From NCBI GenBank assembly GCA_903813345.2, contig CAIIXF020000011.1:36948062-37012061 (forward strand): a stretch of 64,000 nucleotides of DNA, given 5' to 3'. Source of the stretch: Owenia fusiformis (taxonomy: Eukaryota > Annelida > Polychaeta > Sabellida > Oweniidae). Position 1 is the first letter of the stretch, and each line of letters begins with the position of its first letter. Below are positions 25,501-51,124 of the stretch, one piece after another. The position numbers and the translations under genes were made by a program. The notes beneath the pieces are model-generated. The model saw nothing but the letters and a program-made list of their open reading frames with translations. It did no database searches and had not been told where the DNA came from.

Positions 25501-28500
25501 TCATGAGCAAACTGTATAATAGATCATTTCAATGATTAATAATGACATACTTCTTGCTCTTGATTTTCTTCTGTCTCTTTGCTTTAGACTCCTGGTAAGA
25601 CAATAATGCTCTGTATTTCTGCAGCTCAGCTCGTCTCTCCCTAGCCTGGAAACGCATCAACATGCTATTTGAATTATATTTGTTGATGACTGCTTGTCAC
25701 GTGACAAAAGCTCATGCTCATAGTAACTGTTTTCTATTCCTCACATCTGACATAACTATGCTGATGTACACAAGGTCTATTATCACGCAGCATTAGACTT
25801 GAAAATTCACATGCCAACTCTGTTATAAATCTGTATACACAGCAGATGCATTATGGGTACATACCTCCTCTAGACTCATGGCCTTCATAGATTCCATCTC
25901 AGCTCTGGTCAACTGGGTACGCTTGTCTACTTTGTGTGGATTGTTTCTCAACATGGCCGCTACTTCGACTTCTAATGGGGTCCTAGGCTGGAATGAAAAA
26001 AATTGAAATCTAAGAACAAGAACATTTTTTTATTTTTTAATATTGCACTTCATATGACTTTTCACAAAAGCATTCATAAAATCAATTTAAATTCAATTTC
26101 AATGGATCTAATCCTTTATTTTGGATAATTTTACATACAATAAAGGTCTAACAGGCGACAATATTTCTAGTGTTTATACCCTTACATATTATAGAAAGAT
26201 GTCATGGATATTTAGAACAAGACCGATGTTTCAGTCCAACTTTACTTAAAGTAAAATTGGAATTCTGGCCCATGCGCCCAAAGAGTAAAAATTCTTGGGA
26301 GAATACAATACCAACTTGAAGTTTCTTTCCAATCCTGCAATTTTTATTGGAAGTACTTCAATCTAAAAATCAAGAAAGCAGTCAAAGATGTTTTTAGAAA
26401 TACAGGAAGGCATACCTTAAACGACCTGACAACTTGATCAGTAGTCTGGAGGTTGAGGTTAGGTCTCTCTAAAGGAAAACTCAGTTGTGGAGCATTCCTA
26501 TTTTCCTTCACTATGGGATCCCACAGAGTGAGGTCTTTGCTGGTTTTCTCATATACAACACGGCGTTCAATCTATGTGTAGAAAAACAAAAAGAATTATT
26601 GTATGTTCAGCAGCTTAATTGTTTGAATTCCTTGCAAGCTCATGATGTCTTAATATAACTAATTACACCATGGTCAGAGCAATATAATATGCAAGTGATA
26701 AATCACATATTTGGGATAGGGATGATATCAGGGTTGATATTGGGATTAGAGGGATGATATCAGGGATGTTATGGATATTATCCGGGGTTTTTACTCCAAA
26801 GTTTTACACTTGTATCCATTTTATTTAAAAATTTCATTTTTTAAAATTTTCCATTTTTTCAAAAACTCATATTTTTCAAAAAAAATCATTTTTTCAAAAA
26901 ATTCATTTATTCAAAAATTATGAGAAAAGATTAGATTTCAAACAATGAGTAATGTTATGGACTATTAGCTTTGCATAGCAACTGACAAACCAAATGTTAT
27001 TCTTGTTTCATTCCCATTTAATTGCCATTGGATAAAATCTGAAGGACGATTTTCAAAAATAACCAAATTTGTCAGTCACTTCTGACCTTGCATGATTTAT
27101 TGCAGAAAAATTGTAATAATCAGATCTGAAGTCAAATTATGAAGTAGCATTACCCTTCCCTGCTCTGGCTTTGAGAGAGGAGTGTCAAGTGTCTTGTTTC
27201 GTCTCTTGAGCTCCATGAGCTGCTTCTTCAGCATGCCATGCCCTGTGGTGTTCTGTAGCGCACCCATCAACTGATGCAGACGGATCTTATCAGCATCTAA
27301 ATTAAAGAAAAGTTTCAAAATATTAGATAATATATGCACTGTAAACATGTTATAATGTGGTTTTTATTAAAACCTTAAGATTGTCATGAACTGTCACTAG
27401 ATCGATCCAAGTAATGGATCAAGATTAATAAATATATTAAAAATAAATAGTAACATCAAGATTAATGGAATTGTGTGCTTAATCCCATTTAATTTTAGTG
27501 CTGCATTGTTTGCTTTTTCTCACCTCTATGCAAGACTACATTCTAATTGGAGATAAAAATAGATGTTATTCCTAAGACTTAAAGTGGTAGCCTTAAAGTA
27601 ATAAAATACAAGGCATTAACATGCAAAATGACACCGCCATTTGTTACAGACGCTAAATGCCAATCGCCAACGGCCGTCACAAAAAACGGAGACCATTACA
27701 ATATGTATAAAAATTCTCAAATTTATTGGTTCTAACAATTCTGTTTAACTATTAACATTTACCTGATGATGTAGACAGACTAGCTTCACCAATATTCTTA
27801 GTTGTTTCAGACCTCGCCTTCCTGTTAGACCTAAAAATAATTATTTCTATAGCATTAGTAATTTGTTTTATTAAGATATATCCAAGTACAGTAATAAGGT
27901 GTTCACTGTTCAACCATTTTTAGGTCTTGCAAATCACCTTAAAATTGAGTTTGAGCCAATTTTACTTTCAACTGGGATTTTTTTCATGATACTAATGTAA
28001 AGGAGACTTGAGAGGAAAAAGATCTATAAGCTCTGGCAAGAGAAGCTAGGCTTCAAGTGCAAGCATATGAATAAATGAATATAATTAACTCACTTTCTCT
28101 TCCCATCCAAGCTGATGATGGAATCAATGAGTTTGTTATGTGTGAAGTCATCACCAACATCCTAGAACAAAAAGGGTTAACATTGAAGCAAATCAGAGCT
28201 ATTGAAACATAAAGGTTGAATTGTCTCAATGTGATGATGGAGTCAATGAGTCTGTTATGTGTGAAGTCATCACCAACATCCTAGAACAAAAAGGGTTAAC
28301 ATTGAAGCAAATCAGAGCTATTGAAACATAAAGGTTGAATTGTCTCAATGTGATGATGGAGTCAATGAGTCTGTTATGTGTGAAGTCATCACCAACATCC
28401 TAGAACAAAAAGGGTTAACATTGAAGCAAATCAGAGCTATTGAAACATAAAGGTTGAATTGTCTCAATGTGATGATGGAGTCAATGAGTCTGTTATGCGT

Positions 28501-31500
28501 GAAGTCATCACCAACATCCTAGAACAAAAAGGGTTAACATTGAAGCAAATCAGAGCTATTGAAACATAAAGGTTGAATTGTCTCAATGTGATGTATTGGT
28601 ACATAGAAACAGACTTTACAGGGTTTTCTTTAGAATTTGAGAAAGTAGTGCAAAATTCTAATTTTCACAATTTTAACCAATTAAAAAGTTGTTCAAAATG
28701 CCAATTTTTCATTTCAGGTGAATGAAAGACTACATGTATTTTGAAAACGGAATCGGTACCCAGAATTAGACTTTACAGAGTTCTCTCTAGAATTTGGAAA
28801 AGTGGGTGCGAAATTAAGTGTCACAATCTAATGCAATAATCAATTTACAAGCATATATTTGGACTTGGATGGTCAAAACTTAATGTTTTAAAGAACAAGG
28901 TTACTCTTTTAACTTAGATGTCAACTTTATTCGAAATATAATATGCTGATGTCAGCAAAATACTTCATCAAAATAGCAAAGCAGTCTTAAGCTTTAAATA
29001 TTACTAATTGTAACAATAGTAAGAAGTGTAATATAAACAATTGAAATCTTATATGCAAAATATGGATTTATTAGCTAATTATCTCATTAACAATTGACCC
29101 TAGAAGCTCTAAGGGGGGGGGGGTGTACAAAAGGCTCTCACAGTTAAGGTTTTCTCTAGAACTTTTTAAAGGCATTAGGTAGAATCTTCAAATTCTCAGC
29201 AGCTGGAGCTAGAGATATAACAAATGTATTATGAAAAATCAGCAGAATTATATGTAGGGTAATTAATTTATTATGATGTAATCATCAGCTCCACGAGACA
29301 AAACCTGATTATATAAATTGAGAATCACTAATTCTACCACATTCAAACCAGACAAATATACAATCTTAGATCTAGTACGTTCAGAACAAACATGGGAAAA
29401 TACTCTATAAGGAAGACAGGGTCAGACCTGTGGAACACTTTACCTCATAAAATTACTCATTCTAATACTCTTTCCACCTTCAAAAAGAATTTAAAATTAC
29501 ACTTGCTCAACAATTAAGATCATTACTTAAAGAAAGAATCAGATCTAGCGAGCAGCCTAACAAAAAATTGTTTCAATTAAAAATATTTCTGGCTATGTCA
29601 TTCCTTTTCATGTACACTTTATTTTAGGAAAACTAAAGATTTTTACAATAATGTATTATTTTTCAATAAGAATGGTGACCATTCCTATTATTTGGGAGAA
29701 TTTAAACATTTTTCACCAATTTTTCACTTTGGATCTATAACTTTACTGATTTATAACATATTGTGAATCTTTTGGGAGATTTGTATTTGAGATTGTAAGG
29801 AATAGATTGGTAGGTCAATTGTACATATTGCTTGTAAATTTGTCACCCCCATAGATCTGATTCTGCGTTTGATCAAGGTCTAACTTTTCTTGAGAAAAAT
29901 CTCTGGAGTGAGTAGAGGAGGATGGAGGATGGGACCGATTGTGAAATATTTAGTGTTGATTTTTAATTCTAATGAGCACTGATTTCTTGTATGAGTTTTG
30001 CTACTTTTGCTACTTTTTACTTTGCTATTTTTTGTTTAGTATAAAATGGATCATATGCCCCTTGGGGTGTCTTCAACTGTTGTGATTGTATTTGTATTAT
30101 TTGGAATTTAGGAAAAAAATAAAAAAAAAATAAAAAAAATAAAATAAAACGTGTTGTCTTGAGAATAAAATTACACAATCTTAAAATCATCATAGTTGTA
30201 AAAGTTATTACACCATAGAAGTAAAAGTAGATAAATGAATGAAGTACTGTATATTTGGGGAAAGTTTGAACATCAGAGCTTTTCTGATAAAGATTCTATA
30301 AGTGGCATCCTCCGATCACAGGGCTTCAAAATCCAGAATATATTCTTTCTTTTTACCCCCTGCGATAAGCAGTTAGCATTTTCCCGATTAAGAACTCGCA
30401 GTCTGATTGGCTAATGCAACAGAAATCATGTATAAGTCATTGCGCATAATTAGATTACGTGATTCAGTTTAATCGGGCGCTCCCAAATTGGTTATAGCAG
30501 GGGGAAGAAGGAAGTACGGATTCTGTACAGCTGCTTAGGAGGATGATAAGTGGGGGGGGGGGAGTTTGTGGGATATGGCATCTGTCAGGCAAGCAGAAAT
30601 GAAGGCACTAGAAACTGAATGCATGAATCCTACCAGTATGCGCTAAATGGTCAAGGAGGATTGGCTCCCAGAGTGCAACACCGATATTCTGTCCCATATA
30701 TGGGCATGTTGTGATACATGCGAACCCCCTGTAAAAAATTCTCAAAAGTTCATAAATTAAATTAGGTAAGATTTAGCCCATCATGAGAAATCATGGCCTT
30801 CATATTTCTCGTTGAAGGCAGAAATATGTGATGAGTATCAGAATGGATTTAACCATTTACTGTGTTCATGTAGCATAGGAGTCCCATTCAAATCTAAAAC
30901 AAGGGCGGAATGTCTAGGAGCAAAATTGTTTCATCAGAATATTAAAACATAGTATTTGCCCATTTAATTCGATTCTTGATAATAGTTTTTTCTGAAAAGT
31001 TACTAATTCACAATGAAGCAACGCTGTATCTTTTAGAATCAATATTTTATAATGAAGTGTATTTTTAGAATTTAAATCTTAAATAAAATAGGATTAGTGT
31101 CAGAATGAAATAGATTACTTAACAATTTAATAAATGAAAAAAGTAGAAACGGAATTCTCTTTTATGATCAATGAGTTTTGGCACATATGGACAAACTAGT
31201 GACAAAAATTAATGCCAACTTTACATTAAAAGATAATCTTGCAACATTAACAAGACAAAATGCCACACAGGTTATCGCAAATAAATGAATAGATAGAATT
31301 CAACCATTTACGGTGTTCATATATAGCGTATTAGTCCTGTTCATATCTATATATATATCTTTTATTGACTCTTTAGATGTCATATCATGACATATTAGTC
31401 ACTTAGGTAGAGCAGTTCTTCCCATTGTCGAGTTGAAGAACTGGTATCTTTATCCTGGCTAGAACCATAGACAATTCTAGCCAGCGCCAGCCTTTTATCG

Positions 31501-33276
31501 AGTTAGCAGCACTCTAGTAATCGCCGGTATAGGTCAGCATAACACGAGCAGGGTGTCTAGGAGCAAAATTATTTCTTCAGAATATTACGGTAATACTAAT
31601 TGGCCAATTCAAGTCTGAATGAAAGTTTTCTTTCTGAAAAGGTACAATGACGAAACAGGTATCTTTTGGAATCAATATTCTATATTGAAGTATATTTTTA
31701 AATTTTAAATCTTAAATAAAATAAGATTAGTAAGTGTCAGAATGAACTGGATTACATATTACAATTAAAAAAAGAAATGAAGGAACATTGAAAAATTTTA
31801 GTTGAATAAAGTAAAATATAAGATTTTATAAGCAAAGTTGTTTTAAAACTGAATGTGTAATTCCAACTCTATCTGCTATAACATGTTAAAGGTTATTGTT
31901 TTGGAAATATTTTGAAGTTATGAAATACTTGTATATGTTTAGGTTCAGTTATAGCAGGTGACAATAGATTAATAATACTACCTTTTGAGGTAAATGTAAA
32001 ATATAAGCTTGCATTTGCAAATGCAACTAACAACTAGCGACTACCGGATTAACCTACTATTTTATGACCAATTCATTTAAATATGAATGGAATAGTGGCA
32101 GGTACTATTCATATTTAAATGAGTTGCCCATAAAATAGTAGGTTAATCCGGTAGCGGATTGAGTAAATGTAAAAATGGAATTAAAATTGATATGTTAATT
32201 AGTAAGCTAATTAATATGCATAATAAAAACACAGTTGTTATACACTTCTTTTACCCCTATAGTCATAATTGAGATCGTATTTATTCTACTCTAATTTAGG
32301 GTTACGTTATTCAGGTGAAATTAACTCCACTTGTAACACATTTATAACCTTACAATGATACCAAATCTCTGTTCTACCAAAGGTGAACCCGTTATAAAAA
32401 TCAGACAATCGTTACTGCACTTAGTTTACATTTTTCTGGTAGTGTTGATTTAATGACTTAATTTGCATAATTATTGTATTTTTTCAGAGAGAGAATGTTC
32501 ACAGGTAGATATGTATATTGCAAGCCATAAATTAAACAAAAATAACTGATAAGGGAAATTTAACTCCATTTAAATACATGAATACTACCAAATGTGCCAC
32601 GCCCCCTTTCAGAAATATTACATAATTTTAAAAAGACAATAGAAAAAATGCTCAACCTACCACAACTGCATATTTGTGGCTTTTTGACCAAGACATGCCT
32701 AACTATCAAAAAATGCAATAAAACATTGTATATACTCCAAAACAAGGTTCAGTGATAAATCCTTTGTTTTCATCTAGACTATATACATTATACCCGCCAT
32801 GCTATCTGACCCGAACGAGCCATCTGGTGGTGAATCTGGTAACTACCTACTCGCATCTGCGTTATTAAAAAGTTGTTCAAAATGCCAATTTTTCATGACT
32901 TTCTCATTTTCAGGTGAGTGAAAAACTATTTTGAAAAATGGACTTAGCACACACTTGCACTAAATTTGGGAACATCACTGGTTGATATAGCCTCAATGGA
33001 CTTTTGTTTACAAGGAAAATATAAGAATATAAGGAGGGTGTTCATTGCGTTTAAATTGTCATCAAAAATGTGTGACAGTCCGAAAATGTCATTTTAAGAA
33101 ATGTCATACCACCAGGGTGACCACTACAGTATGACAATAAAACAAATTGTAATTTTTAGATTCAGATCAATAACTACAGTATAAGGTTGAGCAGTATTTG
33201 TATATTTACTAACCTCATCTCCACTGTCATTCTCATAACCCCCTGATGTGAAAATGTCTTCAGTTTCATCCATCAT
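16578..33276 (-). CDS. UTP14: UTP14, U3 snoRNA-associated protein 14 (SSU processome), complete, 11 coding exons
   Basis: Nucleolar protein of the small-subunit processome, needed for 18S pre-rRNA processing; in yeast Utp14 activates the Dhr1/DHX37 helicase (family knowledge). Coding exons, 5' to 3' on the minus strand: 33276-33214 (start ATGATG), 28161-28094, 27830-27763, 27296-27154, 26571-26416, 25987-25865, 25645-25551, 25203-25002, 24776-23833, 17251-17152 and 16877-16578 (stop TGA). All junctions are GT-AG and the phases agree throughout, giving about 753 aa, close to the human length. Diagnostic stretches are HNKLIDSIISLDGK, LTLWDPIVKENR, ESMKAMSLEEARERRAEL, KKIKSKKFHR, MSLKHR, the acidic/basic middle (24.7-24.0 kb), LTLPGWGDWGGAG, RFLIKAPPLPPRKDK and LPFPYTNVLQFE. 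The N-terminal ATG lies two bases after the exon-2 acceptor, so exon 1 is untranslated. The 6.6-kb intron between the last two large exons contains an opposite-strand gene. The second coding exon is partly amplified upstream (28113-28588). Confidence 0.95.
16915..17026 (+). mobile_element. Family A short element in the last UTP14 intron
   Basis: Carries CAAGACATTAACATGCACAATATCACCACCTG, a diverged centre and ATTACAATATGTCATCACTTCCGATGG at the end. The GTTACAGACGCC block is largely missing, so this is an older copy. It begins 38 bases from the acceptor side of the final UTP14 exon. Confidence 0.7.
17331..17418. repeat. Three tandem copies of a unit of about 31 bp
   Basis: The words GAAATGAGATGTCATGGTTTATCATG repeat three times with one to three changes each. 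The array is short, intronic and has no coding sense. Confidence 0.75.
19345..19410. repeat. (GGTAT)n microsatellite abutting a gene relic
   Basis: Imperfect TATGG repeats run directly into the decayed glycosyltransferase copy at the point where the intact gene reads GGGTATGGTATTCC. The microsatellite therefore probably grew from that short gene-derived GGTATGGTAT word. This is inferred from position and sequence. Confidence 0.65.
19400..19585 (+). pseudogene. Decayed fragment of the GT61 glycosyltransferase gene
   Basis: This is similar to 22515-22690 of the intact gene at 21447-23051, on the same strand and in the same UTP14 intron. Shared blocks in the same order are GGTATTCC, ATAAACTCAACTGTGAT, TAGAGACTATG, AACCCAG, AGGGGGTAAAATTGA, CGTAAAATC, TCAATGAAGATGAG and CAGGCTATGA. 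In the intact gene this segment encodes the part around ILFIWRRDY and the residues after it. The relic has several insertions, deletions and in-frame stops, including a T-rich insertion after CTGTGAT, and covers only about 180 bp. It is not functional as a coding sequence. I saw no further matching segment on either side, so it looks like a partial tandem duplicate that lost its remaining parts. Confidence 0.85.
20794..20885. mobile_element. Very short MITE-like element with imperfect inverted ends
   Basis: The ends CAGGCCTGTTGCCAGGG and, inverted, CAGACCCGTAGCCAGGG pair with three mismatches over 92 bp. ATAGT flanks both sides. The CAG...CTG ends suggest hAT-like origin, but the flank is too short to be sure of the duplication length. 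Confidence 0.5.
21120..21262 (+). mobile_element. Family A short hairpin-ended element upstream of the GT61 gene
   Basis: CAAGACATTGACATGCAAATTGTCACCACTTGCC at the start, TTTGTTACAGACACTGA in the middle, and the terminal hairpin ATGTCACCACttttGGTGGTATCAT. It lies about 185 bp before the GT61 start codon, so it may sit in that gene's promoter or 5' intron. Confidence 0.8.
21447..23051 (+). CDS. Type II membrane glycosyltransferase of family GT61 (EOGT/POMGNT2-like fold), intact, nested in a UTP14 intron
   Basis: A single 534-aa coding exon. I start it at ATG 21447; the frame extends seven codons upstream only through a TTG and through TTTTCAG at 21436-21442, which looks like a 3' splice site, so a spliced 5' untranslated exon is likely. 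A short cytoplasmic tail with basic residues (KRKWR) precedes a membrane anchor at about residues 19-37 (IAVFTLLVICTLYLMYY), which suggests a Golgi or ER type II enzyme. GT61 hallmarks are NFYHVITDIYNAF (about 255), the ILFIWRRDY segment (about 374) with following NEDELLQAM, and ADLLIGMHGAGLSHTLFLPP (about 438), the probable nucleotide-sugar region. NETL, NMTN and NFSK are possible N-glycosylation sites. The sugar transferred cannot be told; animal members of this family move GlcNAc onto O-linked acceptors. AATAAA at 23405 is followed 20 bases later by an A-run. Confidence 0.92.
   Translation: MLTLLKRKWRMYCQRGPMPYIAVFTLLVICTLYLMYYNKPRVESFYENYKEPVKANALRIQEAMPGVFDKIDKMKKMGNPENWKMADLHKPFNETLNFLNDKLKSMNMTNAFMNNIAFPNLIDLRKNMQKPKPTLLNEWRNKVKRKQMCDRALTLYNNEFALLNDVIIDRNFSKGAIGGESLHEVLNQLETDEIYQLKQGFFKMDCEADTLSDYTFSGDTNHLNAWLEAVSTKSSTQGKDINKIPELTIAIQRYEYANFYHVITDIYNAFLMMTFFDKQPENTNIIFIDGHPFCELDLIWQKLFHSVQRVGHLEGPTLYESLVWGMVGYNSPLNSHGAGGMETLPLAKEFKEFYLGGYGIPSGGPLEHKLNCDKINILFIWRRDYVSHPRNPGGKIDRKILNEDELLQAMRTIDTVHKVEGIQFDQRSMGIQLNYITNADLLIGMHGAGLSHTLFLPPHSALLELSPNDWSPSNKHFWYFAKWSGVSHYRWQSDMRGSARGSRDPAYTIVPPGTLKDLVTKIIANMCKTDQSSQ
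23405..23440 (+). promoter_or_regulatory. Probable polyadenylation signal of the GT61 gene
   Basis: AATAAA lies about 355 bases after the stop codon and is followed by a run of ten A at about 23429-23438. An A-run after a signal can be a genomic trace of retroposition, or simply an A-rich stretch in AT-rich DNA. Confidence 0.45.
27609..27710 (+). mobile_element. Family A short element, 3' truncated, in a UTP14 intron
   Basis: CAAGGCATTAACATGCAAAATGACACC, TTTGTTACAGACGCTAAATGCC and GGAGACCATTACAATATGT are present. The terminal hairpin is missing. It lies 50 bases from the donor of the third coding exon of UTP14. Confidence 0.75.
28113..28588 (-). repeat. Tandem array, 4 x 119 bp, carrying the 3' splice site and most of a UTP14 exon
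   Basis: The anchor TGATGATGG recurs at 28113, 28232, 28351 and 28470, an exact 119-bp period. On the minus strand each unit contains intron end TTTTTGTTCTAG, then the first 49 or so bases of the exon that encodes DVGDDFTHNKLIDSII. Only the unit nearest the exon's true end (28113) continues into the rest of the exon and its donor at 28094. The three upstream units share differences from it (GAGTCAATGAGTCTG instead of GAATCAATGAGTTTG) and are nearly identical to each other. The array therefore supplies three extra acceptor sites that lead to truncated exon copies. Confidence 0.95.
28680..28750. repeat. Dispersed repeat copy 1 in a UTP14 intron
   Basis: AAAAGTTGTTCAAAATGCCAATTTTTCAT followed by TTTCAGGTGAATGAAAGACTA matches 32870-32945 in the same orientation with a 15-base gap. 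It is intronic, and its origin is not recognised. Confidence 0.65.
29300..30149 (+). mobile_element. 5'-truncated LINE (non-LTR retrotransposon) tail
   Basis: The frame 29383-29517 encodes the end of a non-LTR reverse-transcriptase ORF: RTNMGKYSI, then the hallmark GSDLWNTLPHKI, then STFKKNLKLHLL and a stop. This C-terminal pattern is typical of Jockey/CR1-like elements. Just upstream, in another frame, LRITNSTTFKP is probably the preceding part separated by a frameshift. A 3' untranslated region of about 600 bp ends in an A-rich tail (A7TA11TA8T...) at 30112-30149. The reverse-transcriptase core and endonuclease are absent. It sits antisense to UTP14 in its largest 5' intron. Confidence 0.8.
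30652..30725 (+). mobile_element. Truncated copy of the hAT MITE
   Basis: CAAGGAGGATTGGCTCCCAG is followed by AGTGCAACACCGATATTCTGTCCCATATATGGGCATGT, matching 11421-11490 with a few changes. The right half is missing. Confidence 0.8.
30835..31770. repeat. Direct duplication in a UTP14 intron
   Basis: The block about 30840-31130 is repeated in the same orientation at about 31300-31770. Shared words include AACCATTTACNGTGTTCAT, GTCTAGGAGCAAAATT, TCAGAATATTA and TTAAATCTTAAATAAAATA. The second copy has about 170 extra bases (31360-31540) that are absent from the first. A further weak match to the last block lies at 17518-17560. Confidence 0.65.
32041..32154. repeat. Palindrome with 48-bp arms
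   Basis: CTACCGGATTAACCTACTA at the left and its inverse at the right end. The arms (32041-32088 and 32107-32154) pair with few mismatches around a spacer of about 18 bp. It probably comes from a MITE; no clear target duplication was seen. Confidence 0.8.
32795..32945 (+). repeat. Dispersed 'CCACCTGGTGG' repeat, then dispersed repeat copy 2
   Basis: The segment 32795-32872 (GCCATGCTATCTGACCCGAA, GAGCCATCTGGTGG, GGTAACTACCTACTCGCATC) matches 54651-54726 in the same orientation and 57934-57990 inverted. It is joined to a second block (32870-32945) that also occurs alone at 28680-28750. No coding or tRNA-like structure was seen. Confidence 0.65.
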
Positions 33277-33379
33277 TCTGAAAGTATAAGAACAGAAAAT
33301 AAAATTTATGAGTCATGGGGCATCATTTATGTTTTTATTTTGGAATCATCAATTGCTCTGTGGTGTCACAAAGCAAATG

Positions 33380-33700
33380 CAACGAGGCATTAACATGACA
33401 AAATGTTACCACTTCATTGCTCACAATATTATGAATCTTTTTTTGACCTTGAGAAGATCATTGAAGGTCAAATCTCAAATCTAAAGTCAGATTTGAATTT
33501 CTGAGAACTTGTAGATGATTTTGAAATAAAAATCTGGTTAATTGAAGCAAGCTGAAAAAATACCCTTTGGACCTTTTTTGACCTTGAGAAGGTCATTGAA
33601 GGACAAATCTCAAATCTATAGTCAGATTTGAACTTCTGAGAACTTGTAGATGATTTTGAAAAAAAATTGGTCAATTCGAAGCAAGTTGAAAAAAGATGAG
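33380..33700 (+). mobile_element. Family A element, long form, 3' truncated
   Basis: It starts GGCATTAACATGACAAAATGTTACCACTT and continues into about two copies of a 115-125-bp unit (TTTTTGACCTTGAGAAGRTCATTGAAGG ... TCAGATTTGAAYTTCTGAGAACTTGTAGATGATTTTG). The GTTACAGACGCC block and 3' hairpin found in complete copies are missing. An open frame on the opposite strand (33468-33752) is just the repeat read backwards. Confidence 0.75.
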
Positions 33701-34243
33701 CCGAAAGATTGTATAACACTTTCAAATGGTATTGGATAACACTTTGTATCATTTAGAGCAATATATTAGGCACATTTTCTGAAAAATTGAAAAGATTCTG
33801 TTCAGTGACCTTTCCAAAGCGCCTGCTTTTAGCTATTTTTCAGTCACATTTTCAGAGGGCTGAAAAAGTTATTTTGTCATGTTTAGGGTCATTTTGACCA
33901 TGTACATTGTGCTTCTGGTCATGTAAATGACATGTGAAACTAATTTAACCTACTAGATGTCAAAACAGAACTCTGTTAGCTTGGTTCAAAAAATGTTTGA
34001 AATCCAGCATGGTTTTGTCATTTCCTGTTTTGGCAGGCACCTTAAACACCTTCCTTCAAACTGTGAACACCTTGGTCCAAATCTGAACACCTTGGTCCAA
34101 ATTTTGAACACCTTGGGACAGGGACAAAAAAAATTGAAGACAACGCTGACATATATGCAATATGCATGAAAATTCCAAACGAACTGTATTAGTATTTTTG
34201 GCATTCATTTCTCATGTTTCGGCATTGGTTCTTTGTGTCCTTC

Positions 34244-34296
34244 TCCAGAAATATTTTTGCTTGACAATATTTTTCACATATATTGTCAAGCAAAAA
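34244..34296. repeat. Short perfect hairpin
   Basis: TTTTTGCTTGACAATAT and its inverse ATATTGTCAAGCAAAAA are separated by about 13 bases. It is intronic to UTP14 and its function is unknown. Confidence 0.7.
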
Positions 34297-35151
34297 AACT
34301 GGTGTGACTTCAATTTCTTCAGAAAATCCGTGACAAATACGCAAATTGCAGGACAACTGGCAGGCCTGTTGATTGGATAATTATTGACTGATGCGTATAA
34401 TATCGATTAATATTAATGAGTGGCACAAAATGCCAAGTGACTATCTGAGATACTCACTTCTTCTGAGGGTCAATACAACCTACTTGAGATTTGTTTTGGT
34501 CATGGTATAGGAAAAGTAGTACTTAAAACACTAGTTTGCTACTTTGTAGATGTATGGCACGTATATGTGTACATGTATTGACAATTAATGTTTGGTAATA
34601 GCTAGTAGGAGTGTCAGGGACCGCTGACAGATTATAATTTTGAACCCAAAAAATTGAATTATATTTTTGGTCGTCTCAGTAAATCAATGGGGTAATCAGG
34701 TTCTACGTGCTTTTTACAGGCCCAGAAATCAATGCTCCGTTATAAAGGTAGCAAAATCTTTTTTGTTCATGGGATATTTTTTTCACCATATAACCGAACG
34801 GGAAGTTTTTACATGATCTGAATGGATGCGAGGATTCGATGGGCTGGGATTTGAGAAATTATTATTTGAACTTTGCCAATTTTACATGTATTCCAATGGG
34901 TGAAAAAGTAAGTTGCTTTCTACCTGAGTAAATGGCATGTACTCAAAAAAATACAAATGTGCTCTATTATCACCCACATGGAAAAATATTTTACTCGCTG
35001 ACAAATTGATATCATTTAATCCAAGTTTCATGTGGGTTTTTCTCAACAATTTGAAGTGTAAGTATTACTCATTATAATAATAATGAATTCCATGAATAAG
35101 CTACCAGCCTTTGCAATAAATGTACAAAATAAGGGAAGAAATATTATTTAC

Positions 35152-35215
35152 CTTTTTTCACGTGTGAAATTTACGACACCCTCCAGAAAGTCTCCGTTTT
35201 AATTTGTAAATTTTA
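35152..35215 (-). other. Probable non-coding first exon of UTP14
   Basis: On the minus strand the sequence reads ...CACACGTGAAAAAAG|GTAAAT, a good 5' splice site at 35151. It can join the acceptor at 33278 (polypyrimidine then TTTCAG), which directly precedes the ATG. It contains no ATG. The upstream limit is approximate. A CACGTG E-box lies within it at 35159-35164. Confidence 0.55.
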
Positions 35216-35371: not shown

Positions 35372-36523
35372 ATGTTTGTCAAGTTATTCCGAAAATGTGC
35401 AGGTTCCTGCAGTTTTATTGGTGACAATATCAAACAGGTGTTTCGTAATTATTCTGCTGAATCCCATGATGGAGCAGGGCTTATATATAAAGAATATGGC
35501 GATCCTATGAAAGTTCTGAAAAAAGTTGACCATGTACTGTCAAAATCTACACAATCCCATCCCATGGAAGGACGAGTGATAGTCAAAATGCTCGCAGCTC
35601 CTATTAATCCTGCGGATATTAACATGATCCAGGGAACGTACCCTGTCAAGCCATCCCTTCCTGCTGTTGGTGGAAACGAAGGTGTTGGAGAGGTATTGGC
35701 TGTCGGAGATGATGTTACGAGTTTCAAAGAAGGCGACTGGGTTTTGCCATCCAGCCCTGGTTTCGGAACCTGGAGGACACATATGATGTGTAAACCATCG
35801 CAGTTGAAGCTTGTTGCCAATGACATTCCTCTAATAAGTGCAGCAACTCTGGCTGTAAATCCTTGTAGTGCATACCGGATGTTGAAAGACTTTGAACATG
35901 TAGTTCCAGGTGATGTCATCATTCAAAATGGTTCAAACAGTGCCGTTGGTCAAGCCGTGATTCAAATTGCAAGTGCAATGAAATTCAAAACCATCAATGT
36001 TATTCGTGATCGTGATCAACCTGATATGGATGCACTTAAAAAGCATCTGAAATCCCTAGGTGCCACTAAAGTTATTACTGAAGACTTTGTACGCAAACCA
36101 GAAATGAAGGACTTGGTAAAATCTCTCGGTAAGAAACCAAAACTAGCTTTGAATTGTGTTGGTGGAAAAAGTGCAACTGAATTAGCGCGACAGTTAGAAA
36201 ATAATGGCACTATGGTGACGTATGGTGGCATGTCTAAACAACCAGTTGTTGTGCCAACTGGGTCCTTTATCTTCAAGAATATTAAACTGCGAGGCTTTTG
36301 GATGACAAGATGGAATCAAGAGAACTTTAAGAATCCAGAGTCGCAAGATATGCTAGATGAGCTTTGTGAACTTGTGCGACAATGCAAGCTTCATCCGCCA
36401 TTTTGTAATCTGTCGCATATTGATAACTTCCAAGATGCAATTGCTACGGCAATGAAACCACAAACCAACAGGAAAGAGTTGCTAATTATGGATGAAAAAT
36501 ATCTGGACTGGCGATATGAGTAG
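35372..36523 (+). CDS. MECR: Mitochondrial enoyl-[acyl-carrier-protein] reductase / trans-2-enoyl-CoA reductase, single exon
   Basis: NADPH-dependent last step of mitochondrial type II fatty-acid synthesis (medium-chain dehydrogenase/reductase superfamily), needed for octanoate and thus lipoic acid. I use ATG 35372, giving 383 aa (human about 373). It yields a basic, acid-free presequence (MFVKLFRKC...) suited to mitochondrial import. An in-frame ATG at 35282 would add 30 residues. Landmarks are INPADINMIQGTY with the catalytic Tyr at about 90, PAVGGNEGVGEVLAVG (about 98-112), GDWVLPSSPGFGTWR (121-135), the cofactor loop NGSNSAVGQAVIQIA (about 186-200), LNCVGGKS, GTMVTYGGMSKQPVV and LRGFWMTRW. 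The frame is intact through the whole protein with no intron, whereas the vertebrate gene has many exons. Confidence 0.95.
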   Translation: MFVKLFRKCAGSCSFIGDNIKQVFRNYSAESHDGAGLIYKEYGDPMKVLKKVDHVLSKSTQSHPMEGRVIVKMLAAPINPADINMIQGTYPVKPSLPAVGGNEGVGEVLAVGDDVTSFKEGDWVLPSSPGFGTWRTHMMCKPSQLKLVANDIPLISAATLAVNPCSAYRMLKDFEHVVPGDVIIQNGSNSAVGQAVIQIASAMKFKTINVIRDRDQPDMDALKKHLKSLGATKVITEDFVRKPEMKDLVKSLGKKPKLALNCVGGKSATELARQLENNGTMVTYGGMSKQPVVVPTGSFIFKNIKLRGFWMTRWNQENFKNPESQDMLDELCELVRQCKLHPPFCNLSHIDNFQDAIATAMKPQTNRKELLIMDEKYLDWRYE

Positions 36524-41934: not shown

Positions 41935-42028
41935 GACATGAACATGCAAAATGTCACCACCTGCCATTTGCAACAGATGTCAACAGTCAAACACCAACCA
42001 CTGAACACCACTTGGTGATGACATAATA
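41935..42028 (+). mobile_element. Family A short element, internally deleted
   Basis: GACATGAACATGCAAAATGTCACCACCTGCCATTTG, then AACACCAACCACTGAACACCACTTGGTGATGACAT. The GGAGACCATAACAATATG block is missing, so the end hairpin is half lost. Confidence 0.75.
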
Positions 42029-42949
42029 GTGAACCAATGTTTACACCCTTTACAAATGAGACAGATGTGAAGGACAATCCACAAGGTGGTCAGAGCAGTG
42101 CTAACAATATGAGCCCACAAATTCTTTACATTAATCGATTTCTAATTTTACATTGTCCACCTCTACTTCTAAATGCAGTAAAATAAATTATAAATCACAG
42201 GTAGTTAACATTCAACTACAGATATTATTATACAAGATGTAGATCAGGAAAACTGAATGGGAAATATGTAAACAGTCAAAATATGTACATATTCATTTGC
42301 CAGTGTGCCCTTTCATATTAAATGGTAGATTCATTTTGTTATTGTTTCTTTTGTCCCACCCCTTTTCAAGATCCACTTATTGTTTGTACAATACTTTGAT
42401 GCAAATTGCAACATTTAATTGATTATATGTCTTCAGTTTGTCGCATTCAGTCATGTGTTGAATTTCTAGTACTATATTTGTCATTGATCTGTGGACTTGA
42501 GCCTTGAGTTTCAGATATTCAGATTATACTCATATGTAAAGCAGAGTTGTACACTTTAATTATTCCTGTATATTTTGGTGATTATTTAAATGAAATCAAA
42601 AATTTAGAGTGGTCCACAAAGTAAAAATTGCTATTGCCCTTATATCATCCGAAAAAATGAATATTTCATTACCTCTTTTACTTTACTAGGTTAATGGTAA
42701 AATGATACCTTTAGTGGATACCTTTTCGCTTTCATGTTATATAGAACACTCTACATGAAAAATATATAATTTGACAGTTTGACTAGATATATTGCATCTC
42801 ATGTGTTTTAAATCATTCGCTTGACCAGTGAACAAGTTTATGTGATTGCAGTTTTATTTTTAGTTATGCCCCAGACATTCCCTAAAAGTGGTCCTTTAGG
42901 CCTAATTTGGGAAGAGAATAGCCCTTTCAAAATAGACATAAATATCTAA

Positions 42950-43320
42950 CAAGGCATTAACATGACAAAATGTCACCACCTAGTTGCTCACAATATTATG
43001 AGTTCAATCTTAAGTCAGATTTGAATTTCTGAGAACTTGTATATGATTTTGAAAAAATAAACTGGTCAATTTGAAGCAAGTTGAAAAAAGACCTTTTTTG
43101 ACCCCGAGAAGATCATTGGCGATGAAATCTCAAGTCAGATTTGAACTTCTGAAAACATTTAGATGATTTTGAAAAAATTGGAGTCAGTCTAAACAATGTT
43201 TGTTAAGTTATTGGAAGTTGTAAGAATTTGTTACAGACGCCGATCGCCAACCACCAACCGCCGTCAACTAAAAACAGAGACCATAACAATATGTCACCAT
43301 TTTTTGGTAGTGACATAATA
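42950..43320 (+). mobile_element. Family A element, long form with internal repeats, complete
   Basis: The family 5' word (CAAGGCATTAACATGACAAAATGTCACCACC) leads into about two units of the 'GTCAGATTTGAA..TTCTGAGAACTTGTA..ATGATTTTGAAAAAA' repeat. The family 3' part follows: TTTGTTACAGACGCCGATCGCC ... CCATAACAATATGTCACCAttttttGGTAGTGACATAATA. It shows that long and short copies share both ends. Confidence 0.85.
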
Positions 43321-43529
43321 AAGGGGCCCAAAGAAAGGGAAGAGATTTTACAAAAATAATTTGCCTCCCCATACCCTCAGGCAAAATACTAGATCTAGGT
43401 CAAGTACAGTAAATAATATAACAGTGAGATGCATGATAAAAATCTATTTTGCTAAATTGTTTGTTCATTGTTGCTTGTTTTCTTCAATCGTCCTTGTTTT
43501 TCATTTTCTCCCTATCTTTGATTTATGAA

Positions 43530-46500
43530 TCTTCTTTGTCCATTGGATACACTCTATTGAGTTTCTCTATGTTTTGTTGCAATAGTTTGTGTGTTGGATT
43601 GAGCCTCAGAGCCTCATTGTAGTGGAACCTCGCCATCTTATATTGTTTCTGAAATATCAATGAACTATTAATCTTCTTTGTCCATTGGATACACTCTATT
43701 GAGTTTCTCTATGTTTTGTTGCAATAGTTTGTGTGTTGGATTGAGCCTCAGAGCCTCATTGTAGTGGAACCTCGCCATCTTATATTGTTTCTGAAATATC
43801 AATGAACTATTAATCTTCTTTGTCCATTGGATACACTCTATTGAGTTTCTCTATGTTTTGTTGCAATAGTTTGTGTGTTGGATTGAGCCTCAGAGCCTCA
43901 TTGTAGTGGAACCTCGCCATCTTATATTGTTTCTGAAATATCAATCAATTATGAATCTTCTTTGTCCATTGGATACACTCTATTGAGTTTCTCTATGTTT
44001 TGTTGCAATAGTTTGTGTGTTGGATTGAGCCTCAGAGCCTCATTGTAGTGGAACCTCGCCATCTTATATTGTTTCTGAAATATCAATGAACTATTAATCT
44101 TCTTTGTCCATTGGATACACTCTATTGAGTTTCTCTATGTTTTGTTGCAATAGTTTGTGTGTTGGATTGAGCCTCAGAGCCTCATTGTAGTGGAACCTCG
44201 CCATCTTATATTGTTTCTGAAATATCAATGAATTATGAATCTTCTTTGTCCATTGGATACACTCTATTGAGTTTCTCTATGTTTTGTAGCAATAATTTGT
44301 GTGTTGGATTGAGCCTCAGAGCCTCATTGTAGTGGAACCTCGCCATCTTATATTGTTTCTGAAATATCAATGGATTCTGAATCTTCTTTGTCCGTTGGAT
44401 ATACTCTGTTGAGTTTCTCTATGTTTTGTTGCAATAGTTTGTGTGTTGGATTGAGCCTCAGAGCCTCATTGTAGTGGAACCTAGCCATCTTATATTGTTT
44501 CTGAAATATCAATGGATTCTGAATCTTCTTTGTCCGTTGGATATACTCTGTTGAGTTTCTCTATGTTTTGTTGCAATAGTTTGTGTGTTGGATTGAGCCT
44601 CAGAGCCTCATTGTAGTGGAACCTCGCCATCTTATATTGTTTCTGAAATATCAATCAATTATGAATCTTCTTTGTCCATTGGATACACTCTGTTGAGTTT
44701 CTCTATGTTTTGTTGCAATAATTTATGTGTTGGATTGAGCCTCAGAGCCTCATTGTAGTGGAACCTCGCCATCTTATATTGTTTCTGAAATATCAATGGA
44801 TTCTGAATCTTCTTTGTCCGTTGGATATACTCTGTTGAGTTTCTCTATGTTTTGTTGCAATAGTTTGTGTGTTGGATTGAGCCTCAGAGCCTCATTGTAG
44901 TGGAACCTAGCCATCTTATATTGTTTCTGAAATATCAATCAATTATGAATCTTCTTTGTCCATTGGATATACTCTATTGAGTTTCTCTATGTTTTGTTGC
45001 AATAGTTTGTGTGTTGGATTGAGCCTCAGAGCCTCATTGTAGTGGAACCTAGCCATCTTATATTGTTTCTGAAATATCAATCAATTATGAATCTTCTTTG
45101 TCCATTGGATACACTCTGTTGAGTTTCTCTATGTTTTGTTGCAATAGTTTGTGTGTTGGATTGAGCCTCAGAGCCTCATTGTAGTGGAACCTAGCCATCT
45201 TATATTGTTTCTGAAATATCAATGAACTATTAATCTTCTTTGTCCATTGGATACACTCTGTTGAGTTTCTCTATGTTTTGTTGCAATAGTTTGTGTGTTG
45301 GATTGAGCCTCAGAGCCTCATAGTAGAGGAACCTCGCCATCTTATATTGTTTCTGAAATATCCTTGAATTATGAATCTTCTTTGTCCATTGGATACACTC
45401 TATTGAGTTTCTCTATGTTTTGTTGCAATAGTTTGTGTGTTGGATTGAGCCTCAGAGCCTCATTGTAGTGGAACCTCGCCATCTTATATTGTTTCTGAAA
45501 TATCAATGAATTATGAATCTTCTTTGTCCATTGGATATACTCTGTTGAGTTTCTCTATGTTTTGTTGCAATAGTTTGTGTGTTGGATTGAGCCTCAGAGC
45601 CTCATTGTAGTGGAACCTCGCCATCTTATATTGTTTCTGAAATATCAATGAACTATTAATCTTCTTTGTCCATTGGATACACTCTATTGAGTTTCTCTAT
45701 GTTTTGTTGCAATAGTTTGTGTGTTGGATTGAGCCTCAGAGCCTCATTGTAGTGGAACCTCGCCATCTTATATTGTTTCTGAAATATCAATGAATTATGA
45801 ATCTTCTTTGTCCATTGGATACACTCTATTGAGTTTCTCTATGTTTTGTTGCAATAATTTATGTGTTGGATTGAGCCTCAGAGCCTCATTGTAGTGGAAC
45901 CTCGCCATCTTATATTGTTTCTGAAATATCAATGAACTATTAATCTTCTTTGTCCATTGGATACACTCTGTTGAGTTTCTCTATGTTTTGTTGCAATAGT
46001 TTGTGTGTTGGATTGAGCCTCAAAGCCTCATTGTAGTGGAACCTAGCCATCTTATATTGTTTCTGAAATATAAATGAATTATGAATCTTCTTTGTCCATT
46101 GGATACACTCTATTGAGTTTCTCTATGTTTTGTTGCAATAGTTTGTGTGTTGGATTGAGCCTCAGAGCCTCATTGTAGTGGAACCTCGCCATCTTATATT
46201 GTTTCTGAAATATCAATGAATTATGAATCTTCTTTGTCCATTGGATATACTCTGTTGAGTTTCTCTATGTTTTGTTGCAATAGTTTGTGTGTTGGATTGA
46301 GCCTCAGAGCCTCATTGTAGTGGAATCTAGCCATCTTATATTGTTTCTGAAATATAAATGAATTATGAATCTTCTTTGTCCATTGGATATACTCTGTTGA
46401 GTTTCTCTATGTTTTGTTGCAATAGTTTGTGTGTTGGATTGAGCCTCAGAGCCTCATTGTAGTGGAACCTCGCCATCTTATATTGTTTCTGAAATATCAA

Positions 46501-46937
46501 TGAATTATGAATCTTCTTTGTCCATTGGATATACTCTGTTGAGTTTCTCTATGTTTTGTTGCAATAGTTTGTGTGTTGGATTGAGCCTCAGAGCCTCATT
46601 GTAGTGGAACCTCGCCATCTTATATTGTTTCTGAAATATCAATGAACTATTAATCTTCTTTGTCCATTGGATACACTCTATTGAGTTTCTCTATGTTTTG
46701 TTGCAATAGTTTGTGTGTTGGATTGAGCCTCAGAGCCTCATTGTAGTGGAACCTCGCCATCTTATATTGTTTCTGAAATATCAATGAATTATGAATCTTC
46801 TTTGTCCATTGGATACACTCTATTGAGTTTCTCTATGTTTTGTAGCAATAATTTGTGTGTTGGATTGAGCCTCAGAGCCTCATTGTAGTGGAACCTCGCC
46901 ATCTTATATTGTTTCTGAAATATAAATGTACACTATA
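43530..46937 (-). repeat. Tandem array of 24 copies (142 bp each) of the terminal exon of a TPR gene
   Basis: TCTTCTTTG starts at 43530 and the period is exactly 142 bp through the last unit at 46796; no indel shifts the register. On the minus strand each unit has TTGATATTTCAG (3' splice site), then an exon encoding KQYKMARFHYNEALRLNP, HKLLQQNIEKLNRVYP and MDKED, then a stop. The variable 20-base spacer gives three kinds of ending: a stop right after KED (spacer AACTATTA), KEDS-stop (AATTATG) or a longer tail (GGATTCTG). Exon bases are nearly invariant between units while spacers vary. The copy at 43530 borders unique 3' sequence and is probably the ancestral one. Confidence 0.97.
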
Positions 46938-47846
46938 TAACCATGAAGTCCGTTATCTCCTTTAACATTCTATCTTTACCCCAATACATTACTTAAGATT
47001 CTCAATTCATTTTTATTGCCATTGTCATGGAATTGGCAACTATTGTATCTTAGTTAGTTTTCTCCATCTTGAATCTTCAATAGCTTCCATTTTTGATTAG
47101 ACATCTTACATCCTTCTCAAATAATGAATAAAGATTGTAAGTTACTAGAGTACTCATAATAAGCAAATACTATATATTTGTGTGAAGTAAATAAGCTGAG
47201 TTAAATTGTACAGAAGTACCAGTAAAACTTATATATTCAAACACCTCCTAATGTGAACAATTCTTCATCAAAACACTTTTACACATTCCAGACAATGATT
47301 CACTTAAACAGGTTTTACTCTACACAAAAGTGACATGTAAGCATTGATTTGTACCTTCATGTGTAAGATGACTCCTATATTCAGCTGAACCTCCATGTGC
47401 CAAGGGTTGAACAGCAAACACTGCCCATAACTCTGAAAAAATTATTATGTCTTGTTACATGTAAATGGTGGAGGTGAAACTTTAAGTGATTTGAGAAATA
47501 AAATATCAAATGGCAAAAACAGTCACAGGGAAACACCACGTAACATCCAACAAATGTTCAAAGATAATTTTTCCAATGAGTTCCTTATATATTACTAAGA
47601 CCTATAAATGATCCAGTCCCCCTACATCCCCGTAGACCAATTAAGAATACAACAGACCACAGTGTTCAATTTCAAGCTCATATAGAGAGTAAATATGTGA
47701 AACAGGTACTTTCTCTTATATAATACCTTATATGCCCCATCAAAATCTTCAAGATCCCTGAGATGGTTGCCTTTGTTGTAATATAACTGAGCTTTGGTTG
47801 TAGTATCAGTGGTATACTGGAGAGCCTGGTCTAGGTACTGGATAGC
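46789..47846 (-). CDS. C-terminal part of a TPR-repeat protein (three exons; upstream exons not found)
   Basis: Exons on the minus strand are 47846-47727 (AIQYLDQALQYTT, AQLYYNKGNHLRDLEDFDGAYK), 47432-47355 (SYGQCLLFNPWHMEVQLNIGVILHMK) and 46914-46789 (KQYKMARFHYNEALRLNP..., stop). All are in phase 0 with GT-AG junctions. Together they read as two and a half tetratricopeptide repeats: the pattern W/Y-LG/IG-Y-A-F-A-P is visible in AQLYYNKGN...GAYKSYGQCLLFNP and VQLNIGVILHMKKQYKMARFHYNEALRLNP. TPRs serve as protein-binding scaffolds; the partner and pathway cannot be told. I used the first terminal-exon copy met by transcription; any of 24 copies could serve. The first exon listed is the last unit of a second array. 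Upstream exons must lie above 51.2 kb on the minus strand but none was recognised. Confidence 0.85.
47220..47320. mobile_element. Decayed pogo-like MITE in a TPR-gene intron
   Basis: CAGTAAAACTTATATATTC at the left and AACAGGTTTTACTCTA at the right, with AAACACCTCC inside, resembling the elements at 40.3 and 40.6 kb. The ends have mutated and the target duplication is unclear. Confidence 0.55.
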
Positions 47847-50800
47847 CTGAAAATACATAGGGTAATACTTGAATATTGCCTTTGTTGTAATGTAACTGAG
47901 CGTTGGTTGTAGTATCAGTGGTATACTGGAGAGCCTGGTCTAGGTACTGGATAGCCTGAAAATACATAGGGTAATACTTGAATATTGCCATTGTTGTAAT
48001 ATAACTGAGCTTTAGTTGTAGCATCAGTGGTATACTGAAGAGCCTGGTCTAGGTACTGGGTAGCCTGAAAATACATAGGGTAATACTTGAATATTGCCTT
48101 TGTTGTAATATAACTGAGCTTTAGTTGTAGTATAAGTGGTAAACTGGAGCCTGGTATAGGTACTAGAAAGCCTGAAAATACATAGGGTAATACTTGAATA
48201 TTGGCTTTGTTGTAATATAATTGAGGTTTGGTCTCGGCACTGGATAGCCTGAAAATATATAGGGTAATACTCGAATATTGGCTTTGTTGTAATATAATTG
48301 AGCTTTAGCTGTATTATCAGTGGTATACTGGAGAGTCTGGTCTAGGTACTGGATAGCCTGAAAATACATAAGGTAATACTTGAATATTGCCTTGTAATAT
48401 AACTGAGCTTTGGTTGTAGTATCAGTGGTATACTGGAGCCTGGTCTAGGTACTGGATAGCCTGAAAATACATAGGGTAATACTTGAATATTGCCTTTGTT
48501 GTAATATAACTGAGCTTTAGTTGTAGCATCAGTGGTACACTGGAGAGCCTGGTCTAGGTACTGTATAGCCTGAAAATGCATAGGGTAATTCTTGAATATT
48601 GCCTTTGTTGTAATATAACTGCGCTTTGGTTGTATTATCAGTGATACACTGGAGAGCCTGGTCTAGGTACTGTATAGCCTGAAAATACATAGGGTAATAC
48701 TTGAATATTGCCTTTGTTGTAATATAACTGAGCTTTGGTTGTAGTATCAGTGGTATAATGGAGAGCCTGGTCTAGGTACTGGATAGCCTGAAAATACATA
48801 AGGTAATACTTGAATATTGCAATTGTTGTAATATAACTGAGCTTTGGTTGTATTATCAGTGGTATACTGGAGAGTCTGGTCTAGGTACTGGATAGCCTGA
48901 AAATACATAGGGTAATACTTGAATATTGCCTTTGTTGTAATATAATTGAGCTTTGGTTGTATTATCAGTGGTATACTGGAGAGCCTGGTCTAGGTACTGT
49001 ATAGCCTGAAAATACATAGGGTAATACTTGAATATTGCAATTGTTGTAATATAACTGAGCTTTGGTTGTAGTATCAGTGGTATACTGGACAGCCTGGTCT
49101 AGGTACTGGATAGCCTGAAAATACATAAGGTAATACTTGAATATTGCTTTTGTTGTAATATAACTGAGCTTTAGTTGTAGTATCAGTGGTATAATGGAGA
49201 GCCTGGTCTAGGTACTGGATAGCCTGAAAATACATAGGGTAATACTTGAATATTGCCTTTGTTGTAATATAACTGAGCTTTGGTTGTATTATCAGTGGTA
49301 TACTGGACAGCCTGGTCTAAGTACTGGATAGCCTGAAAATACATAAGGTAATACTTGAATATTGCAATTGTTGTAATATAACTGAGCTTTGGTTGTATTA
49401 TCAGTGGTATACTGGACAGCCTGGTCTAGGTACTGGATAGCCTGAAAATACATAGGGTAATACTTGAATATTGCAATTGTTGTAATATAACTGAGCTTTA
49501 GTTGTAGTATCAGTGGTATACTGGAGCCTGGTCTAGGTACTGGATAGCCTGAAAATACATAAGGTAATACTTGAATATTGCCTTTGTTGTAATATAACTG
49601 AGCTTTGGTTGTATTATCAGTGGTATACTGGACAGCCTGGTCTAAGTACTGGATAGCCTGAAAATACATAAGGTAATACTTGAATATTGCCTTGTTGTAA
49701 TATAACTGAGCTTTGGTTGTAGTATCAGTGGTATACTGGAGCCTGGTCTAGGTACTGGATAGCCTGAAAATACATAAGGTAATACTTGAATATTGCAATT
49801 GTTGTAATATAACTGAGCTTTGGTTGTATTATCAGTGGTATACTGGAGAGTCTGGTCTAGGTACTGGATAGCCTGAAAATACATAAGGTAATACTTGAAT
49901 ATTGCCTTGTTGTAATATAACTGAGCTTTGGTTGTAGTATCAGTGGTATACTGGAGCCTGGTCTAGGTACTGGATAGCCTGAAAATACATAGGGTAATAC
50001 TTGAATATTGCCTTTGTTGTAATATAACTGAGCTTTAGTTGTAGCATCAGTGGTACACTGGAGAGCCTGGTCTAGGTACTGTATAGCCTGAAAATGCATA
50101 GGGTAATTCTTGAATATTGCCTTTGTTGTAATATAACTGAGCTTTGGTTGTATTATCAGTGATACACTGGAGAGCCTGGTCTAGGTACTGTATAGCCTGA
50201 AAATACATAGGGTAATACTTGAATATTGCCTTTGTTGTAATATAACTGAGCTTTGGTTGTATTATCAGTGGTATACTGGACAGCCTGGTCTAGGTACTGG
50301 ATAGCCTGAAAATACATAGGGTAATACTTGAATATTGCCATTGTTGTAATATAACTGAGCTTTGGTTGTATTATCAGTGGTATTCTGAAGAGCCTGGTCT
50401 AGATACTGGATAGCCTGAAAATACATAAGGTAATACTTGAATATTGCAATTGTTGTAATATAACTGAGCTTTGGTTGTAGTATCAGTGGTATAATGGAGA
50501 GCCTGGTCTAGGTACTGGATAGCCTGAAAATACATAAGGTAATACTTGAATATTGCAATTGTTGTAATATAACTGAGCTTTGGTTGTAGTATCAGTGGTA
50601 TAATGGAGAGCCTGGTCTAGGTACTGGATAGCCTGAAAATACATAGGGTAATACTTGAATATTGCCTTTGTTGTAATATAACTGAGCTTTAGTTGTAGCA
50701 TCAGTGGTACACTGGAGAGCCTGGTCTAGGTACTGTATAGCCTGAAAATGCATAGGGTAATACTTGAATATTGCCATTGTTGTAATATAACTGAGCTTTG

Positions 50801-51100
50801 GTTGTAGTATCAGTGGTATAATGGAGAGCCTGGTCTAGGTACTGGATAGCCTGAAAATACATAAGGTAATACTTGAATATTGCAATTGTTGTAATATAAC
50901 TGAGCTTTGGTTGTAGTATCAGTGGTATAATGGAGAGCCTGGTCTAGGTACTGGATAGCCTGAAAATACATAAGGTAATACTTGAATATTGTCTTGTTGT
51001 AATATAACTGAGCTTTGCTTGTATTATCAGTGGTATACTGGAGAGCCTGGTCTAGGTACTGGATAGCCTGAAAATACATAGGGTAATACGTGGATATCAT
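47759..51100 (-). repeat. Tandem array of about 31 copies (period near 109 bp) of the 3' splice site and 5' part of a TPR exon
   Basis: The word AGCCTGAAAATACAT recurs about 31 times from 47845 to 51067, mostly 109 bases apart, with some units at 103-108 and one at 77. On the minus strand each unit is TATGTATTTTCAG followed by about 87 bases encoding AIQYLDQALQYTTD and AQLYYNKGN, then a junction TATTCAAGTATTACCC into the next unit. Only the unit at 47846 continues into the rest of the exon (HLRDLEDFDGAYK) and a donor. Because 109 is not a multiple of 3, reading through shifts frame in each unit and stops within about two units. Frames of up to 125 codons in the array come from units with small deletions and are not genes. 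Confidence 0.96.
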
Positions 51101-51124
51101 TATTTTGTTGTATCTACATATTTA

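Follow-up and report, generated by a model that had tools for sequence, protein, structure and literature searches.

Tandem arrays whose units repeat an intron-exon boundary have been described in genes of amphioxus under the name of mirages (PMC3087553, PMC3902484). In the globin gene BflGb6, the unit of 150 to 160 bp joins the 3' end of an intron to the 5' part of an exon, two haplotypes carry six and three copies, and reverse transcription-PCR shows regular splicing despite the mirage; in a second globin gene, BflGb9, it is the opposite exon boundary that is duplicated (PMC3087553). Here we describe arrays of similar anatomy in the polychaete Owenia fusiformis, three of them in a Utp14 gene and a TPR gene within a window of 64,000 nucleotides (G000:C11:36948062-37012061) and four more elsewhere in the genome (498 Mb, 12 large contigs). 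They are probably mirage-type minisatellites, tolerated because the copy at the array edge still makes the exon and homogenised along with that working exon.

The Owenia arrays resemble those of amphioxus in their boundary-spanning tandem units, the authentic exon beside the array and their concerted evolution (in amphioxus, units are 81 to 100% identical; PMC3087553). They differ in that one array reaches about 31 units and another repeats a whole terminal exon. Splicing and haplotype differences have been examined in amphioxus, whereas the Owenia arrays are known from the sequence of a single assembly. Mutually exclusive exons are whole exons, each with an acceptor and a donor, unlike the units found here, which are truncated, near-identical and separated by no donor-like site matching 7 of 9 consensus positions. 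What the arrays share with tandem exon duplication and mutually exclusive exons is the presence of head-to-tail exon copies within a gene (PMC9013439, PMC9741552). Intron gain via tandem duplication of proto-splice sites also involves small tandem duplications that bear splice signals, but there a new intron is born inside coding sequence, while here existing introns are lengthened by repeated exon fragments (PMC2891723). A paper on huntingtin mentions tandem repeats and, in its excerpted text, no splice-site arrays (PMC2206037). None of the matches listed in our literature searches describes arrays of this sort beyond the cephalochordates.

Arrays in a Utp14 gene and a TPR gene

The three arrays of the window had been picked out in an initial annotation made from the letters of the sequence, and Tandem Repeats Finder (TRF), with which tandem arrays were located, confirms the sizes proposed there: 4 units of 119 bp in the Utp14 gene, about 31 units of 109 bp in the TPR gene and 24 units of 142 bp at the terminal exon of the latter. 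Boundaries between intron and exon inside the units were placed by hand, and the Pfam matches for Utp14 and TPR were obtained on hand-joined exons. Donor-like sites were scored by the number of positions matching a 9-position consensus, with 7/9 as the main threshold and 6/9 as the relaxed one. All features given below for these two genes lie on the minus strand. The GC content is about 34%, both in the window and in the random sample described later.

Array A (28113..28593; TRF 4.0 copies, 99% matches) has a unit composed of 70 nucleotides (nt) of intron end followed by 49 nt from the start of a Utp14 exon, with an AG acceptor in 4/4 copies. The downstream-most copy, in the sense of transcription, runs into the remaining exon and its donor, so that the presumed working exon (28094..28161) has its acceptor within the last copy and the donor GTGAGT, which matches 8/9 consensus positions. 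No donor-like site was found in the three upstream copies by the donor scan at either 7/9 or 6/9. The Pfam match to Utp14 lies just above the cut-off (E = 1e-7, 31.5 bits versus 30.2). A 5-nt motif, CATCA, is found at both ends of the founding unit, once in the intron and once in the exon, as expected from duplication at short homology. A genome search with array A and its flanks returned, besides the array, a single match (66 bases, 78%) that falls in the flank and not in the unit.

In the TPR gene (Pfam TPR_1, E = 1.2e-14), array B (47767..51097; TRF 4.3 + 26.5 copies, 93% matches) repeats 29 nt of intron end together with the first two-thirds (80 of 120 nt) of a TPR exon. The presumed working exon (47727..47846) is joined to the downstream copy and has the donor GTATTA, which scores 6/9. 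The proposed count of about 31 copies corresponds to 31 unit matches, to which has to be added one decayed copy of the exon part (c0; 51098..51177) at the transcription-upstream edge that retains the acceptor AG. An AG acceptor is present in 32/32 copies, although partly by construction, as copies were chosen by a pattern containing TCAG. Between this array and the next one lies a single-copy internal exon of the gene (SYGQCLLFNPWHMEVQLNIGVILHMK; 47355..47432), recognised by its sequence and by the Pfam TPR match on the joined exons.

Array C (43519..46928) consists of exactly 24 units of 142 bp (TRF 24.0 copies, 96% matches, no indels), each with 16 nt of intron including the AG (24/24 copies), the entire last coding exon of the TPR gene and its stop. 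All 24 copies have an in-frame stop; its distance from the acceptor is 120 or 123 nt, the usual place, in 21 copies and 150 nt in three. Every copy is therefore a complete terminal exon, and the downstream one is not special. The initial annotation had stated that in all three arrays the copy at the downstream edge is the one joined to the rest of the gene, which holds for arrays A and B but not for C, where all 24 copies carry the whole exon and stop. Similarly, the range of 15 to 60 bases given for the intron part fits B and C and is exceeded in A, while the AG acceptor claimed for each unit was found in all three.

Searches of the whole genome with the 109-bp and 142-bp units gave at least 31 and at least 24 matches, respectively, all at the window locus among the matches listed, and a satellite or transposon origin of the TPR units was rejected, as they were otherwise unmatched in that search. 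We also rejected the possibility that they are coding TPR repeats, since 109 and 142 bp break the reading frame and no 7/9 donor-like site lies between copies.

Recurrence in four further gene families

The exon survey of the genome used nine Pfam families (PF00069, PF00225, PF00063, PF00005, PF12774, PF00118, PF00632, PF08393 and PF00176), and places where the same profile segment was matched repeatedly at close spacing were judged by eye. It yielded 787 rows or about 749 exon-level matches, counting each array as one and a dispersed HECT-bearing family (17 rows) also as one; for several families, only some candidates were scored. The exon part must suffice for a Pfam match, and arrays of short units such as that of L050 (see below) escape. 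The DNA was read at 10 places with a repeated look, which comprised four truncated-exon arrays, two complete-exon pairs (L043 and L054, set aside as ordinary pairs of this type) and four candidates (L047, L049, L050 and L051) rejected as exon arrays because the DNA shows no repeated exon.

The four arrays, established by survey match and DNA reading, belong to four unrelated gene families: kinesin (18 copies of 159 bp, C2:23266359-23269174), dynein (two copies spaced 154 bp, C12:24489641-24489983), CCT (4.2 copies of 96 bp, near C11:134.9-135.3 kb) and SNF2 (about five copies of 137 bp, C2:4915297-4916006). This corresponds to 4 arrays in about 749 exon matches, or around 1 in 190. The AG acceptor is present in 18/18, 2/2, 4/4 and 5/5 copies, respectively, and 17 of the 18 kinesin units have an in-frame stop 134 nt after it. 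Together with the window, there are seven arrays, with hand-set intron parts of 16, 29, 31, 34, 37, 53 and 70 nt. The last copy continues to a donor in all six that involve internal exons (A, B, kinesin, dynein, CCT and SNF2), and none of the seven has a donor-like site of at least 7/9 between the first and last acceptors.

The three sequence features that define mirages are found in these arrays. TRF and spacing counts show head-to-tail, minisatellite-like repetition (in dynein with only two copies), the units span an intron-exon boundary with its splice signal, with the exons placed by Pfam matches, and the authentic complete exon stands at the array edge in the six internal-exon arrays, while in C all copies are complete.

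Evolution of the copies and origin of the arrays

We counted the distinct variants of the exon parts, and the ratio of synonymous to non-synonymous changes was 2:1 in A, 9:2 in kinesin, 3:0 in dynein, 2:3 in CCT and 5:0 in SNF2. In array C, it was 7:4 when the stop codon and the preceding codon that becomes a stop were omitted, and 8:6 when they were included. Pooling these six arrays gives 28 synonymous versus 10 non-synonymous variants, where 25% synonymous would be expected (p = 4e-10). In C, kinesin, SNF2 and dynein, diversity reaches 0.073 to 0.16 at 4-fold sites versus 0 to 0.0075 at 0-fold sites, a difference of at least 10-fold. Array B shows a different pattern, as its variants (8:25, decayed copy excluded) match the expectation without constraint and deletions fall within the exon part in 8/32 copies; its intron part was somewhat less variable than the exon part (5/29 versus 30/80 variable sites, p = 0.06). 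The number of distinct exon sequences is 13 in the 24 copies of C and 25 in the 32 of B. Variants of the kinesin array are scattered along it and not layered, which fits mixing and led us to reject growth outward from the working copy.

The most probable origin of these arrays is an ordinary minisatellite, the founding tandem duplication of which happened to span an intron-exon boundary, presumably at short homologies. Such an array would be tolerated because, under exon definition, the spliceosome would pair the only acceptor closely followed by a donor, and the extra copies would remain intronic, with apparently one working copy left at the array edge. Since the 3' splice site of the last copy has to function, the gene would no longer work if the intron part fell far below the observed lengths; in array C, with 16 nt of intron, the branch point may have to lie inside the end of the preceding copy. 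All copies of this terminal-exon array being complete, the choice of acceptor should matter little to the protein. Copies would turn over by unequal exchange or conversion and, where mixing is fast, the working copy would join the exchange, making selection on it visible in all copies, while in array B most copies would have escaped exchange and decay. Exchange with a selected working exon is a simpler explanation of the synonymous pattern than use of the copies.

Several observations weigh against this explanation. The pooled p value treats variants as independent, which copy exchange leaves only roughly true, and CCT has no synonymous excess, with diversity of 0 at 4-fold versus 0.04 at 0-fold sites. 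Lowering the donor threshold to 6/9 reveals sites in the decoy stretches of CCT (4), SNF2 (12) and B (1), with 0 in the other four arrays, and two of the six real donors score just 6/9. We infer the use of the last acceptor from the layout of the sequence, and microhomology is clear in array A alone. Finally, chance should produce donor-side arrays of this size about as often, yet none was found.

According to a more far-reaching reading, which we regard as improbable, intron end plus exon start would be a preferred amplification unit, and the working exon would renew its own array, keeping dozens of non-coding copies protein-like. If true, amplification on the acceptor side would act as a constant source of mutation, making introns longer and furnishing material from which novel exons and alternative ends could arise.

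Amplification directed by the acceptor, in which a feature of the 3' splice site (polypyrimidine tract, nascent RNA or copied-back branch-point intermediates) starts tandem duplication there, is unlikely. Leaving aside array C, which concerns a terminal exon, the internal-exon arrays with a long exon part lie on the acceptor side in six of six cases (two-sided p = 0.031; 0.125 for the four arrays found independently of the initial annotation), and the intron part is short in most arrays (16 to 70 nt). Against it speaks a short donor-side counterpart in L050 (C11:15887600-15888350, minus strand). Read on that strand, an array of 20 bp and 3.8 copies occupies positions 594-668, begins precisely at a HECT exon's donor and carries the donor-like GTAAATAG (once GTATATAG) four times. 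Its DNA was read for another reason, and its exon part of only a few bases lies below survey detection; including it, the tally is 6:1 (p = 0.125). Moreover, amphioxus mirages are known on both exon boundaries (PMC3087553), and selection against extra donors would yield the same asymmetry.

Expectations by chance were derived from a random sample of 20 stretches of 10 kb (200 kb in total), and it showed that tandem arrays are dense genome-wide, with 40 of period 30 or more. There were 17 with a period of 80 to 170, or 11 after a rough word filter for dispersed families; the filter removed 6/17, wrongly dropping L012:9341-9898 and letting at least one dispersed-family member (L010) through, and the expectation is therefore given for both 17 and 11. 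Depending on this number and on how long an exon has to be for detection, background predicts 0.9 to 3.1 acceptor-side arrays among 749 exons versus 4 observed, with P(>=4) ranging from 0.013 under the strictest assumptions, which would favour an acceptor-directed process, to 0.38 under looser ones. Background density is thus sufficient to account for the four survey arrays, and an acceptor-seeking mechanism is not required.

The sample also contains arrays over stop codons. Among its 23 arrays of period 60 or more, 2 touch coding sequence, as judged only by a coding scan (963 training codons) that may have missed some exonic arrays in the 200 kb. One (L012:9341-9898) spans the end and stop of a dynein heavy chain-like gene (Dynein_C, E = 0.012, below the cut-off), and the other (L009:8027-8307) covers the stop codon in a gene of the Kinetochor_Ybp2 family (E = 8e-16). 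Both cover stop codons and not acceptors; the first copy is presumed to be the working one, and the others would fall in the 3' untranslated region. The common rule would then be a working edge copy and not the acceptor as such.

These results leave the interpretation of the initial annotation partly supported. A process amplifying acceptor-exon junctions was not shown, the four arrays being close in number to the background prediction, whereas its other proposal, tolerance where the edge copy still works, fits better and also covers the two stop-codon arrays. Its argument that minisatellites should be indifferent to acceptors leaves geometry out of account, since a unit of about exon length overlapping an exon will nearly always contain a splice site. 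The genome-wide search it had called for, run here in part, indicates that the arrays are not a quirk of the window, but it gave no clear excess over background.

It is quite unlikely that the copies are used as alternative exons under selection, foremost in array C with its 24 acceptors and near-identical C terminus. The contrast between 4-fold and 0-fold sites in C, kinesin, SNF2 and dynein and the in-frame stops of all C units and nearly all kinesin units would agree with use, but array B is unconstrained, CCT shows no constraint, and exchange with the working copy explains the pattern. SNF2 and dynein copies share it although they would truncate the enzymes, and as they could only yield broken ones, use is improbable as a general reason. 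An over-expansion of repeats by the assembler is very improbable, as copies carry scattered variants and the seven arrays are spread over three chromosomes (C2, C11 and C12), although a draft genome of amphioxus reportedly contains one mirage that seems to have been misassembled (PMC3087553) and copy numbers may be inaccurate.

Other repeats and the meaning of recurrent mirages

The same genome seems to carry whole-exon duplicates as well. At L043 (C10:2256400-2257900), a kinase exon, presumably GSK3-like, is present in two complete, diverged copies with an intron of about 50 nt between them, and the pair looks mutually exclusive. At L054 (C1:6486300-6487350), an SNF2 gene has two complete exons that share 74% identity and lie about 680 bp apart, likely an alternative pair. 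Perhaps also in this category are 12 diverged, irregularly spaced matches to the N-terminal segment of the myosin head (about profile positions 18-84) at C9:37986009-37994334 (minus strand), probably a large alternative-exon cluster of a muscle myosin gene. A dynein AAA_6 segment is matched repeatedly, 1 to 3 kb apart, at C9:7082562-7087388 (plus strand) and C11:25315668-25317046 (minus strand), possible alternative or duplicated exons.

Other repeats were of different kinds. A dispersed element occurs at no fewer than 17 places on 10 contigs (e.g., C1:25257117-25257257), with an identical 40.4-bit match to HECT positions 234-284 and an open frame of 161 amino acids, and this 17-copy family may carry part of a HECT domain. 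Short tandem arrays sharing a related unit (AAGTCAGATTTGAA or a close variant) are found at positions 33439-33694 and 55383-55669 of the window, L020:1141-2188 and L022:714-1175; they seem to form a dispersed family whose units measure about 120 to 140 bp. L009:7431-7755 is an array of 3 units of 108 bp (99% matches) with no coding signal in the scan. The window also contains, at 35372-36523 on the plus strand, an uninterrupted open reading frame of 383 amino acids with an alcohol-dehydrogenase-like N-terminal domain (Pfam ADH_N), which we take to be a mitochondrial enoyl reductase.

What is new here is the recurrence of such arrays in unrelated genes, probably outside cephalochordates, together with the redundant terminal exon of array C and the different evolution of copies in constrained arrays and in the decaying one. 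In practical terms, arrays of this type may mislead gene finders during annotation. They also open questions about acceptor preference, splicing across about 31 near-identical acceptors and the feedback of decoy copies on the working exon, and the 24 complete terminal exons of array C constitute a natural experiment on acceptor choice. Mirages have so far been described gene by gene in amphioxus, where they were proposed as a source of new introns, and a second genome with recurring mirages makes this idea testable at a large scale.

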